This document shows positions 24,160 through 26,947 of a DNA stretch of 64,000 bases, piece after piece. Source of the stretch: Streptomyces sp. NRRL B-1347. Its GTDB lineage: Bacteria; Actinomycetota; Actinomycetes; Streptomycetales; Streptomycetaceae. The notes below the pieces were generated by a model. The model saw only the letters and a program-made list of their open reading frames with translations. It did no database searches and was not told the DNA's origin. The stretch's first letter is position 1. The number at the start of each line of letters is the position of its first letter. The stretch is taken from contig NZ_JOJM01000029.1 in NCBI RefSeq assembly GCF_000720325.1, positions 48,968 to 112,967 on the forward strand, in the 5' to 3' direction. Position numbers and translations under genes: made by a program.

Positions 24160-26139
24160 GTGTCAGACGTCCGTGTGATCATCCAACGCGATTCCGAGCG
24201 GGAAGAGCGCGTGGTGACCACGGGCACCACGGCCGCCCAGCTCTTCGAGGGCGAGCGCACCGTCGTGGCCGCGCGCATCGGCGGCGAGCTGAAGGACCTC
24301 GCGTACGAGATCCAGGACGGCGAGGAGGTCGAGCCCGTCGAGATCTCCTCCGAGGACGGCCTGAACATCCTGCGCCACTCCACCGCGCACGTCATGGCCC
24401 AGGCCGTGCAGGAGCTCTTCCCCGACGCCAAGCTCGGCATCGGCCCGCCCATCCGGGACGGCTTCTACTACGACTTCGACGTCAAGGAGCCCTTCACCCC
24501 CGAGGACCTCAAGCGCATCGAGAAGAAGATGCAGGAGATCCAGAAGCGGGGCCAGAAGTTCTCGCGCCGCGTCACCACCGACGACGACGCCCGCGTCGAG
24601 CTCGCCGACGAGCCGTACAAGCTGGAGCTCATTGGCCTCAAGGGCAACGCCGCGCAGGCCGCCGACGGCGCCGACGCCGAGGTGGGCGCGGGCGAGCTGA
24701 CCATCTACGACAACCTGGACGCCAAGACCGGCGAGCTGTGCTGGAAGGACCTCTGCCGCGGCCCGCACCTGGCCACGACCCGGGTGATCCCGGCGTTCAA
24801 GCTGATGCGCTCCGCCGCCGCCTACTGGCGCGGCAGCGAGAAGAACCCGCAGCTCCAGCGCATCTACGGCACCGCGTGGCCCTCCAAGGACGAGCTGAAG
24901 GCGCACCTGGAGTTCCTCGCCGAGGCCGAGAAGCGCGACCACCGCAAGCTCGGCGCCGAGCTGGACCTGTTCTCCTTCCCCGAGGAGCTGGGCCCGGGCC
25001 TCGCGGTCTTCCACCCCAAGGGCGGCGTGATCCGCAAGGTGATGGAGGACTACTCCCGCAAGCGGCACGAGGACTCGGGCTACGAGTTCGTGAACACCCC
25101 GCACATCTCGAAGGAGAAGCTCTTCGAGACCTCGGGGCACCTGCCGCACTACGCGGACGGCATGTTCCCGGCGATCGAGTTCGACGAGCAGAACTACCGC
25201 CTCAAGGCGATGAACTGCCCGATGCACAACCTGATCTTCAAGTCCCGGGGCCGGTCCTACCGTGAGCTGCCCCTGAGGTTGTTTGAGTTCGGGACTGTGT
25301 ACCGCTACGAGAAGTCGGGCGTCGTGCACGGTCTGACCCGCTCGCGTGGGTTCACCCAGGACGACTCGCACATCTACTGCACCAAGGAGCAGATGGCCGA
25401 GGAGCTGGACAAGCTCCTGACCTTCGTCCTGGACCTGCTGCGCGACTACGGTCTGAACGAGTTCGAGCTGGAGCTGTCCACCCGCGACGACTCCGACAAG
25501 TTCATCGGCTCGGACGAGGACTGGGCCGAGGCCACGGAGGCGCTGCGCCAGGCCGCGGAGAAGCAGGGCCTGCCGCTCGTGCCCGACCCGGGCGGGGCCG
25601 CGTACTACGGGCCGAAGATCTCCGTCCAGGCGAAGGACGCGATCGGCCGGTCCTGGCAGATGTCGACCCTCCAGGTGGACTTCAACCAGCCCAAGCGGTT
25701 CGGGCTTGAGTACACCGCCGCGGACGGCACCAAGCAGCAGCCGGTCATGCTGCACCGCGCGCTGTTCGGCTCGATCGAGCGGTTCTTCGGGGTGCTCCTG
25801 GAGCACTACGCGGGCGCGTTCCCGGCGTGGCTCGCGCCGGTGCAGGCCGTGGGGATTCCGGTCGGTGACGCGCACGTGCCGTACCTCCAGGAGTTCGCGG
25901 AGGAGGCGAAGAAGCACGGGCTGCGGGTCGAGGTGGACGCGTCTTCCGACCGCATGCAGAAGAAGATCCGCAACGCGCAGAAGGCCAAGGTTCCGTTCAT
26001 GGTGATCGTCGGCGACGACGACATGAACGCGGGCGCGGTGTCCTTCCGGTACCGGGACGGGTCGCAGGAGAACGGGATTCCCCGTGACCAGGCGATCGCG
26101 AAGCTGGTTGATGTGGTGGAGCGGCGAGCACAGGTGTGA
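24160..26139 (+). CDS. thrS: Threonyl-tRNA synthetase
   Basis: A 659-aa class II synthetase that charges tRNA-Thr. It has an N-terminal TGS domain (residues 1-62), an editing domain with [11 protein letters not shown] (about residue 73) and its zinc/editing cysteines, a catalytic core with the zinc ligand Cys in MNCPMHN (about residue 353), and a C-terminal HGTP anticodon-binding domain. The GTG at 24160 with CAGGAGAGA is the usual streptomycete start. No T-box-like leader is evident, but a tandem duplication lies directly upstream. CRISPR-like palindromes follow directly after the stop. Confidence 0.97.
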
Positions 26140-26229
26140 TTGCTCCCCTCGCATGAGGGGGTGGCCCCGGCATTCCGGCGGGGGACGCCATTGCCAAGCA
26201 GTGCTCCCTGCGTACGCGGGGTTCGGGGG
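26140..26229 (+). CRISPR. Two CRISPR-like 29-nt repeats with one 32-nt spacer (relic)
   Basis: Repeat 1 (26140-26168) and repeat 2 (26201-26229) both start (T/G)TGCTCCC and contain a palindrome: CCCCTC-GCAT-GAGGGG, and CCCTGCG-TA-CGCGGGG with one wobble. Their centres are exactly 61 nt apart, the 29+32 period of type I-E arrays, and both resemble the actinobacterial I-E repeat (GTGCTCCCCGCG...GCGGGG). They match each other at only 17 of 29 positions, there is no third repeat, and no cas gene is in the window. It is therefore a degenerate or orphan mini-array at best. The first palindrome could equally serve as the thrS terminator. Confidence 0.42.
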
Positions 26230-26286
26230 CGGTCCCGTTCGGGGCCGCCCCTCGTCGTGTGTCCGGTGGCGAATATGCTGACCACC

Positions 26287-26835
26287 ATGACGAGTGAGCC
26301 GGAGCAGCAGATCGGAGTGGGGACGCAGGACGCGTTCCAGCGCCTGTGGACGCCCCACCGGATGGCGTACATCCAAGGCGAGAACAAGCCGACCGGTTCG
26401 GGGGCCGACGACGGCTGCCCGTTCTGCTCCATCCCGGCCAAGTCGGACGAGGACGGTCTCGTCCTCAAACGGGGCGAGCACGTGTACGCGGTGCTCAACC
26501 TCTACCCGTACAACGGCGGGCACCTGATGACGGTCCCGTACCGGCACGTCGCGGACTACACGGAGTTGACGGGTCCGGAGACGCTGGAGCTGGCCGAGCT
26601 GACCAAGCAGGCGATGACCGCGCTGCGCACGGCGTCCGGCGCGCACGGCTTCAACCTGGGCATGAACCAGGGCACGGTCGCGGGTGCGGGGATCGCCGCG
26701 CACCTGCACCAGCACATCGTGCCGCGCTGGGGCGGGGACACGAACTTCATGCCCGTCGTGGGGCACACCAAGGTGCTGCCGCAGCTCCTGGCCGACACCC
26801 GCAAGATGCTCGCGGAGGCGTGGCCCGCGGAGTAG
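26287..26835 (+). CDS. HIT-family nucleotide hydrolase/phosphorylase
   Basis: A 182-aa protein with the histidine-triad active site HLHQHIVPRW (about residue 138) and an N-terminal CPFC zinc-binding pair (about residue 44). This pattern is shared with actinobacterial AP4A phosphorylase-like HIT proteins, which cleave dinucleoside polyphosphates. TATGCT at 26274-26279 lies 7 nt before the ATG, implying a leaderless mRNA. An ATG at 26275 is also in frame but falls inside the -10 box. In actinobacteria a HIT gene often precedes pgsA; here it is separated from it by two minus-strand genes. Confidence 0.88.
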   Translation: MTSEPEQQIGVGTQDAFQRLWTPHRMAYIQGENKPTGSGADDGCPFCSIPAKSDEDGLVLKRGEHVYAVLNLYPYNGGHLMTVPYRHVADYTELTGPETLELAELTKQAMTALRTASGAHGFNLGMNQGTVAGAGIAAHLHQHIVPRWGGDTNFMPVVGHTKVLPQLLADTRKMLAEAWPAE

Positions 26836-26844
26836 GGCGCGAAA

Positions 26845-26861
26845 GCGCCCCGAAGGGGCGC
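26845..26861. terminator. Hairpin between convergent genes
   Basis: GCGCCCC (26845-26851) and GGGGCGC (26855-26861) form a 7-bp stem with a GAA loop, 10 bp after the HIT gene. It can also serve the convergent membrane-protein gene. Confidence 0.6.
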
Positions 26862-26947
26862 GGGGCGGTATCGACATGCGACTCCGCCGCGTGGCGCGAC
26901 CGGCCACGGACGGCCCGCAGATTCCGAACCGCGCCCCAGCGGAGCGC

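Follow-up and report, generated by a model that had tools for sequence, protein, structure and literature searches.

Synthetic cleave-and-rescue and homing drives couple a guide against an important gene to a linked, resistant version of that gene, and in known type I-E CRISPR systems Cas6e cutting gives a crRNA whose handle comes from the first repeat and whose hairpin comes from the second. Within the I-E Cascade, every sixth base of the guide is unpaired and flipped out (PMC5904413), and AAN is the reported PAM of the I-E system of Streptomyces avermitilis (PMC12231136). Mini-CRISPR arrays with one or two spacers and no cas genes are carried by viruses of Sulfolobales, where they are aimed at close relatives of the virus (PMC6858448). 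In mating Haloferax, CRISPR targeting of the chromosome alters recombination in a Cas3-dependent manner, and the flow of DNA was from the cut strain into the cutting one (PMC12814878). Here we describe single-spacer, I-E-like arrays on Streptomyces chromosomes. The main point, which was invisible to the preliminary description of the locus, is the resemblance of the spacer to the adjacent thrS gene of other Streptomyces.

The window, a stretch of 64,000 nt from the 10.23-Mb genome of Streptomyces sp. NRRL B-1347 (G000:C29:48968-112967), contains at 26140-26229 a real array of two repeats with a start-to-start period of 61 nt (Table 1). The thrS stop codon is followed in order by a repeat of 28 nt, a spacer of 33 nt (position 0 and positions 1-32) and the second repeat. 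The two repeats share a 20-nt ungapped stretch with 75% identity, and each can form a hairpin with a 6-bp stem and a 4-nt loop; in repeat 1 a T-A pair takes the place of the usual G-C pair, so that the stem is preserved. Repeats of about 28-29 nt with an I-E hairpin, a spacer of about 32-33 nt and a period of 61 nt are the dimensions of a type I-E array, here in a decayed state. The preliminary description had noticed two repeat-like segments 61 nt apart, each with its own palindrome, and had read them as an orphan or decaying two-repeat type I-E array. Both the observation and that part of its interpretation stand, the array being a decayed member of a recurrent family of mini-arrays; its terminator alternative and its suggestion of a usable I-E system in the host, both discussed below, do not.

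Table 1. Features of the thrS-HIT region of Streptomyces sp. NRRL B-1347, in window coordinates
Feature	Position	Strand	Basis and remarks
thrS, threonyl-tRNA synthetase	24160..26139	+	ORF; Pfam tRNA-synt_2b, HGTP_anticodon, tRNA_SAD; start inferred; stop codon 26137-26139
Own-thrS site homologous to the spacer	26071..26105	+	AA at 26071-26072; position 0 is C 26073; positions 1-32 are 26074-26105
Repeat 1, 28 nt, I-E-like, stem change compensated	26140..26167	+	TTGCTCCCCTCGCATGAGGGGGTGGCCC
Spacer, position 0 (26168) plus positions 1-32; like thrS codons NGIP..DAIAK of other species	26168..26200	+	Kin comparison
Repeat 2, with its hairpin but with a 3′ end unlike that of the repeat, a feature of 18 of 20 carriers	26201..26228	+	GTGCTCCCTGCGTACGCGGGGTTCGGGG
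Additional GC-rich hairpin, after the array and before the HIT gene; may be a terminator, though it has no T run	26226..26251	+	Inverted repeat; absent from the terminator-scan list
Second flanking gene, of the HIT family; homologue of the putative target of the G130, G160, G334 and G316 spacers	26287..26835	+	Pfam HIT

Taken alone, the geometry of the window repeats is weak evidence. Their folding is barely above that of shuffled sequence (z of -1.4 and -0.7), and a two-hairpin pattern allowing up to three mismatches is matched four times per strand in the 10.2-Mb genome, versus once for a reversed control pattern; when the pattern also includes the 3′ part of the repeat, the counts in the same genome are two and zero. 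Rfam gave three matches, all far under their gathering scores. The preliminary description had proposed a comparison of the same locus in related strains, and there the repeat pair exceeds chance, because another 19 genomes of the genus have such a pair immediately 3′ of the thrS stop codon. The same comparison bears on the view that two terminators had converged on this form. In its favour, the hairpins lie after a stop codon; however, the scan lists no terminator at the repeats, a separate hairpin stands downstream, and in relatives the middle segment is swapped for varied gene-derived sequences while its length, and with it the spacing of the hairpins, remains nearly constant. The spacer matches and mismatch pattern described below already speak against a terminator pair as well, and we regard its probability as negligible. 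On the 3′ side of the HIT gene, at 26844-26900, the window also contains a stretch of 50-60 nt with dozens of genomic copies that are 81-94% identical (at least 40 matches scored), evidently a dispersed family of small repeats.

The thrS-HIT region was found by DNA search in 198 of 199 genomes of the genus. Twenty Streptomyces genomes, including the window host, have a two-repeat array between thrS and the HIT gene, others have one repeat and many have none; carriers were collected by repeat patterns from the matches listed and by reading the intergenic stretches of part of the genomes, and the count is not a prevalence. Among the 123 loci compared, hairpins with at most two mismatches number zero in 74, one in 30, two in 18 and three in a single locus, and the 49 loci with at least one hairpin are likewise no measure of prevalence, many having been fetched because they bear repeats. 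The 3′ end of repeat 1 (.TG..CC) is kept in 17 of the 20 carriers and that of repeat 2 in two; if Cas6e cuts as in known I-E systems, a single crRNA would need only the 3′ end of repeat 1 and the hairpin of repeat 2.

The spacers at this site differ from one another, and each resembles a piece of thrS or of HIT. Those derived from thrS encode approximately KIRKAHKHKV (five genomes), GIP..DAIAK (three, including the window host), DAIGRTWQM (three), an 11-residue peptide (two), DPEKFVGSD (two) and REHRKLGNALD (one). The remaining four (G130, G160, G334, G316) resemble HIT, in antisense orientation in the case of G334 and G316. Spacers of one type do not count as independent when they occur in several species; their distribution on the thrS tree is patchy, a pattern that loss could also produce. 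Some loci (L040, L041, L050, L066, L137, L141, L149 and others) have a single I-E-like repeat after the thrS stop codon and no second one, perhaps as collapsed arrays. The intergenic stretches that were read hold either an array with a terminator-like hairpin or a channel-like gene. The latter, seen in L081, L082, L084-L088 and others, is an opposite-strand gene of about 700 nt, channel-like by eye, that separates thrS from the HIT gene; in G147 the mini-array lies directly after thrS despite an intervening opposite-strand gene of this type.

The distribution of cas genes is uneven among these carriers. A Cas7e match was found in nine of the 19 that were screened (S. geranii is outside the screen) and in none of the other ten, the window host among them. 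G195 has a Cse1-like gene (C32, L175) with no other recognised cas gene in the stretch read, no Cas7e match and Cas3-core matches only below the cut-off. In the window host we found no match to Cas1, Cse1 or Cas7e, and Cas3-core matches only below the cut-off, which leaves no place for the preliminary suggestion that an I-E system elsewhere in the genome could use the spacer. The window copy is probably a relic, and it should be silent because its host has no I-E cas match over the cut-off; its repeats and spacer have also decayed. Carriers without a Cas7e match may either have lost their cas genes later or contain arrays that persist and move through cas-positive kin.

For the comparison of spacers with potential targets we used the 123 loci with their arrays masked, and 274 spacers from multi-spacer arrays served as controls; the best kin allele is the best among up to 122 others. 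All 20 thrS-site spacers match one of the two flanking genes, thrS or HIT, as found in other species, at 24-31 of 32 nt, and in all 20 the best kin match has AA immediately before position 0, as in the I-E PAM. A score of at least 26 is reached by 16 of the 20, versus none of the 274 controls, whose best matches to thrS loci score 19-25 and of which five have AA on the sense strand. Four spacers, including that of the window, score 24-25 of 32 and are within the control range on score alone. The window spacer matches kin loci L239 and L185 at 25 of 32 nt, with AA followed by C as the PAM and with four pairing mismatches (those outside the flipped-out positions). By itself it is in the upper tail of the control; its assignment to thrS is made through the PAM and through a putative target site that it shares with the G060 and G285 spacers. 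Against the best kin allele, pairing mismatches number one in 13 of the 20 spacers, two in one and three to six in the other six. Twelve of 15 guides have kin loci with a PAM of AA and at most two pairing mismatches in the draw of 199 genomes, with 5-20 such loci per guide in Cse1-positive genomes; for G060, G266 and G285 no allele that good is present among those compared.

Several other properties or origins of the spacers were considered and rejected. An in-frame PAM is not a sign of design, since 48.4 of the 52.7 AA dinucleotides per thrS coding strand begin at codon position 1 anyway. A foreign donor of the KIRKAHKHKV-type (KIR-type) spacer was sought with a degenerate codon pattern, which was found in four stretches of genome contigs, all of them on contigs with a thrS mini-array (G014, G195, G176 and S. 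geranii); the pattern is absent from viral contigs, and no gene encoding that exact peptide was found. As to an origin of the window spacer in a phage or plasmid, for which the preliminary description had suggested a search, blastn with the 90 bases gave no match with E <0.05 among the matches listed (8 of 44 phage and 8 of 36 plasmid records).

The positions at which the spacers depart from kin alleles are those that Cascade leaves unpaired. Position 1 being the base directly after AAN, the every-sixth positions are 6, 12, 18, 24 and 30; at the thrS site the 20 spacers mismatch their best kin alleles at 46 of 100 of these positions versus 42 of 540 elsewhere, in a table in which a few cells are absent because two spacers are shorter. 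The latter figure comprises 7 of 100 at the other wobble positions (3, 9, 15, 21 and 27) and 35 of 440 at the rest. The corresponding mismatches at a second site, beside cobN, are 26 of 40, 3 of 40 and 10 of 176. In an earlier count of 17 spacers (without G311, G334 and G316) the means of all eight target groups lean towards the every-sixth positions (Wilcoxon p 6e-4). Four of the five KIR-type spacers mismatch the best kin allele at 12, 18 and 24 and at one or two other positions; the single spacers G060, G378 and G266 show no every-sixth lean. At the HIT, PEK, NPM and REH sites the alleles themselves vary among each other more at every-sixth than at other wobble positions. The bias suggests that the guides were kept by selection on pairing inside an I-E Cascade, and we read it as the mark of guides maintained by pairing with kin alleles in such a complex.

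The mismatch pattern also bears on a simpler origin, in which Cas1-Cas2 inserted a piece of a nearby gene beside that gene by misplaced self-acquisition and the survivors altered the target. Such a scar would account for spacers that derive from genes directly adjoining the array, self-avoidance is expected from autoimmunity, and the single repeats suggest turnover. It should not, however, preserve pairing positions while the every-sixth positions drift, and it should resemble its own lineage above others, the opposite of what is found; we consider this origin quite unlikely.

The relation of each guide to the allele of its own genome supports the reading of guides directed at kin alleles. The window host's own thrS site has 13 mismatches to the spacer (positions 3, 9, 10, 11, 12, 14, 15, 16, 18, 21, 24, 27 and 32), ten of them at pairing positions, and ranks 102nd among the 123 alleles. 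For the thrS guides other than that of the window, the own allele falls below the median of the 120-122 others in 15 of 15 cases (fraction better 0.55-0.99, ties halved), a disadvantage with a Fisher's combined p of 0.004 over six target groups. Measured against that of the closest relative in thrS identity, ten own alleles fit worse, four equally well and one better (p 0.006, window row left out). Five of the 20 carriers (G378, G374, G221, G116 and G070) have CG as their own PAM, with 2-4 pairing mismatches, and the other 15 have AA with 4-10 pairing mismatches; by either the PAM or the mismatches, the linked allele is predicted to be resistant in all 20. Nearly all other alleles at the G116 and G070 sites (117 of 120 for each) have AA, and in G221 the array and the PAM change occur in a lineage in which the three closest relatives lack a hairpin and have AA. 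The R variant of the DAI site and the presence of a repeat at that locus are associated (27 of 43 vs 15 of 80, Fisher 2e-6), with relatedness not controlled. In three KIR carriers (G014, G176 and S. geranii) the 3′-terminal 260 nt of thrS are nearest (tied in G014) or second nearest (G176) to another KIR carrier and the upstream parts are not, which is at most suggestive of co-transfer tracts.

Self-avoidance takes different forms. The own PAM and positions 1-8 (position 6 aside) are intact in G014, G195, G176 and G285, the G130 type has one seed mismatch and most others have seed mismatches; at own alleles with an intact seed Cascade might bind without cutting. These four carriers, together with the location of the array inside or next to the targeted unit and with the CreTA precedent for partial pairing and degenerate repeats (PMC9458426), would suit a crRNA-guided autoregulator, in which a crRNA from the thrS-HIT transcript brings Cascade to its own gene and partial pairing blocks transcription uncut, as CreA does at creT. 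An autoregulator is difficult to reconcile, however, with an own PAM of CG in five of 20 carriers, with own alleles that fit worse than those of kin and with ten of 19 screened carriers without Cas7e; moreover, the targets are scattered over thrS, HIT and antisense HIT, often hundreds of bases from any promoter. We assign it a small probability. In CreTA the guide represses a linked toxin gene, whereas here the spacer matches fall in thrS or HIT, and the intergenic stretches read have the contents given above.

Similar mini-arrays adjoin cobN/chelatase, recN, ffh and a DUF3817 gene (names from Pfam; RecN is based on AAA matches and a sub-threshold SMC_N match). Eight genomes have arrays in the gap between cobN and the chelatase ATPase gene. 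The G378 guide at this site has zero pairing mismatches to three of 30 kin alleles (differing only at 6, 18, 24 and 30), beside AAG, and its own PAM is CG at a site where 15 of 30 kin have AA. The G332 guide likewise has mismatches at 6, 18, 24 and 30 and no pairing mismatch to kin L277, with AAG, and six pairing mismatches to its own gene. In G026, a Cse1-positive genome, the guide matches kin at 32 of 32 nt, and the own gene differs by a silent change of a serine codon in the seed (GTGAGC in place of GTGTCG). There are two exceptions: the G024 guide fits its own gene, with a PAM of AA and two pairing mismatches, in a genome without a Cse1 match, and the G374 guide has at least six pairing mismatches to every allele compared. 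Both genomes with an array beside recN (G334 and G285) have AT as their own PAM, and AA occurs in 14 of 30 kin; the two guides have at least three and at least five pairing mismatches to all alleles, and neither fits well. The ffh (G014) and DUF3817 (G334, G090) arrays were compared with their own genes only. A further set of arrays (G190:C2:1204264, G090:C1:6445595, G130:C222 (4091) and that on C26 of the window host) was compared with own flanks only, where their spacers are unmatched. On the last of these contigs, at about 24.4-26.6 kb (L069:9400-11570), a module of about 650 nt occurs twice, 1.5 kb apart, near a tRNA-like tandem sequence; each copy has two near-perfect I-E repeats about 57-61 nt apart, and for the first copy the spacer has no match in the sequences that flank it.

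On balance we think it rather probable that the array in the window is what remains, in decayed form, of an allele-targeting mini-array, whose guide and protected allele would form a linked unit that removes rival alleles. From the repeats, the match between spacer and gene, the PAM, the mismatch spacing, the self-avoidance and the recurrence at further genes, all read from sequence, we infer transcription, processing, cutting and benefit as follows. In the better-kept relatives of the window copy, two I-E repeats with one spacer occupy the intergenic space adjoining a conserved gene, the spacer fits kin versions of the neighbour gene beside AA(N), and the own copy is changed so that Cascade should spare it. 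The array would be transcribed and Cas6e would yield one crRNA, with which the Cascade-Cas3 of the host, or of a cell receiving the DNA, would cut susceptible alleles of the neighbour gene. The targets could be alleles that enter the carrier by conjugation or, in a kin cell that has been given the array together with the protected allele, the allele already present there. Guide and protected allele, inherited together, would survive and rivals would be eliminated, in a natural form of allele exclusion or homing.

Homing spread and simple exclusion of incoming DNA would leave the same sequence evidence and are not separable by it. That evidence also fits a pure barrier, in which the guide destroys incoming kin DNA at the locus and separates species with no spread of the unit, and CRISPR targeting does lower inter-species mating in haloarchaea (as cited in PMC12814878). 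A barrier does not by itself explain why the array adjoins the homologue of its target, however, and it overlaps with the linked-unit explanation that we prefer; we judge a barrier only to be unlikely, if well short of improbable. The more general proposal, that Streptomyces chromosomes carry natural CRISPR cleave-and-rescue or homing elements, composed of single-guide I-E mini-arrays and a resistant allele and borrowing the resident Cascade-Cas3, with the window as a dead copy, is tentative and in our estimate has slightly less than an even chance, because four carriers have an intact own PAM and seed and Cas7e is missing from ten of those screened. If it is true, allele warfare guided by RNA would have evolved in bacteria, on their own chromosomes, some of the orphan CRISPR repeats of Streptomyces would be accounted for, recombination and species boundaries would be subject to an extra force, and nature would offer examples of co-evolution among guide, target, PAM and resistant allele. 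Every-sixth mismatches would in addition provide a sequence-only test for guides once used against divergent targets.

In the open-access literature searched, most subscription literature aside, we found no description of chromosomal mini-arrays in linkage with altered alleles of the matched gene, and Section 6 and other passages of a 2025 review of CRISPR in actinomycetes contain no mention of allele-linked mini-arrays (PMC12231136). The ordinary I-E arrays of Streptomyces have the same repeat form, 61-nt period and AAN PAM, but their many spacers are of other origin, and 274 of them gave the best scores of 19-25 to thrS loci mentioned above. The mini-arrays of Sulfolobales viruses are, like those described here, cas-less, with one or two spacers and relatives as targets; they are viral and have a leader, whereas the Streptomyces arrays are chromosomal and stand beside a gene whose kin alleles they match and whose own allele is altered (PMC6858448). 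CreA of CreTA shares with the Streptomyces mini-arrays two degenerate repeats outside arrays, an imperfect guide and the use of a type I Cascade, but represses the promoter of a linked toxin (PMC9458426), whereas the mini-arrays match conserved genes, avoid their own site and have mismatches at unpaired positions. The Haloferax case resembles ours in chromosomal targeting between relatives, but its spacers were placed experimentally and have no linked protected allele, unlike the Streptomyces mini-arrays (PMC12814878). The resemblance to synthetic drives is that of a guide linked to a resistant allele; the drives are engineered and bring their own nuclease, whereas the Streptomyces mini-arrays are natural and would depend on borrowed type I-E proteins, and their spread is putative.
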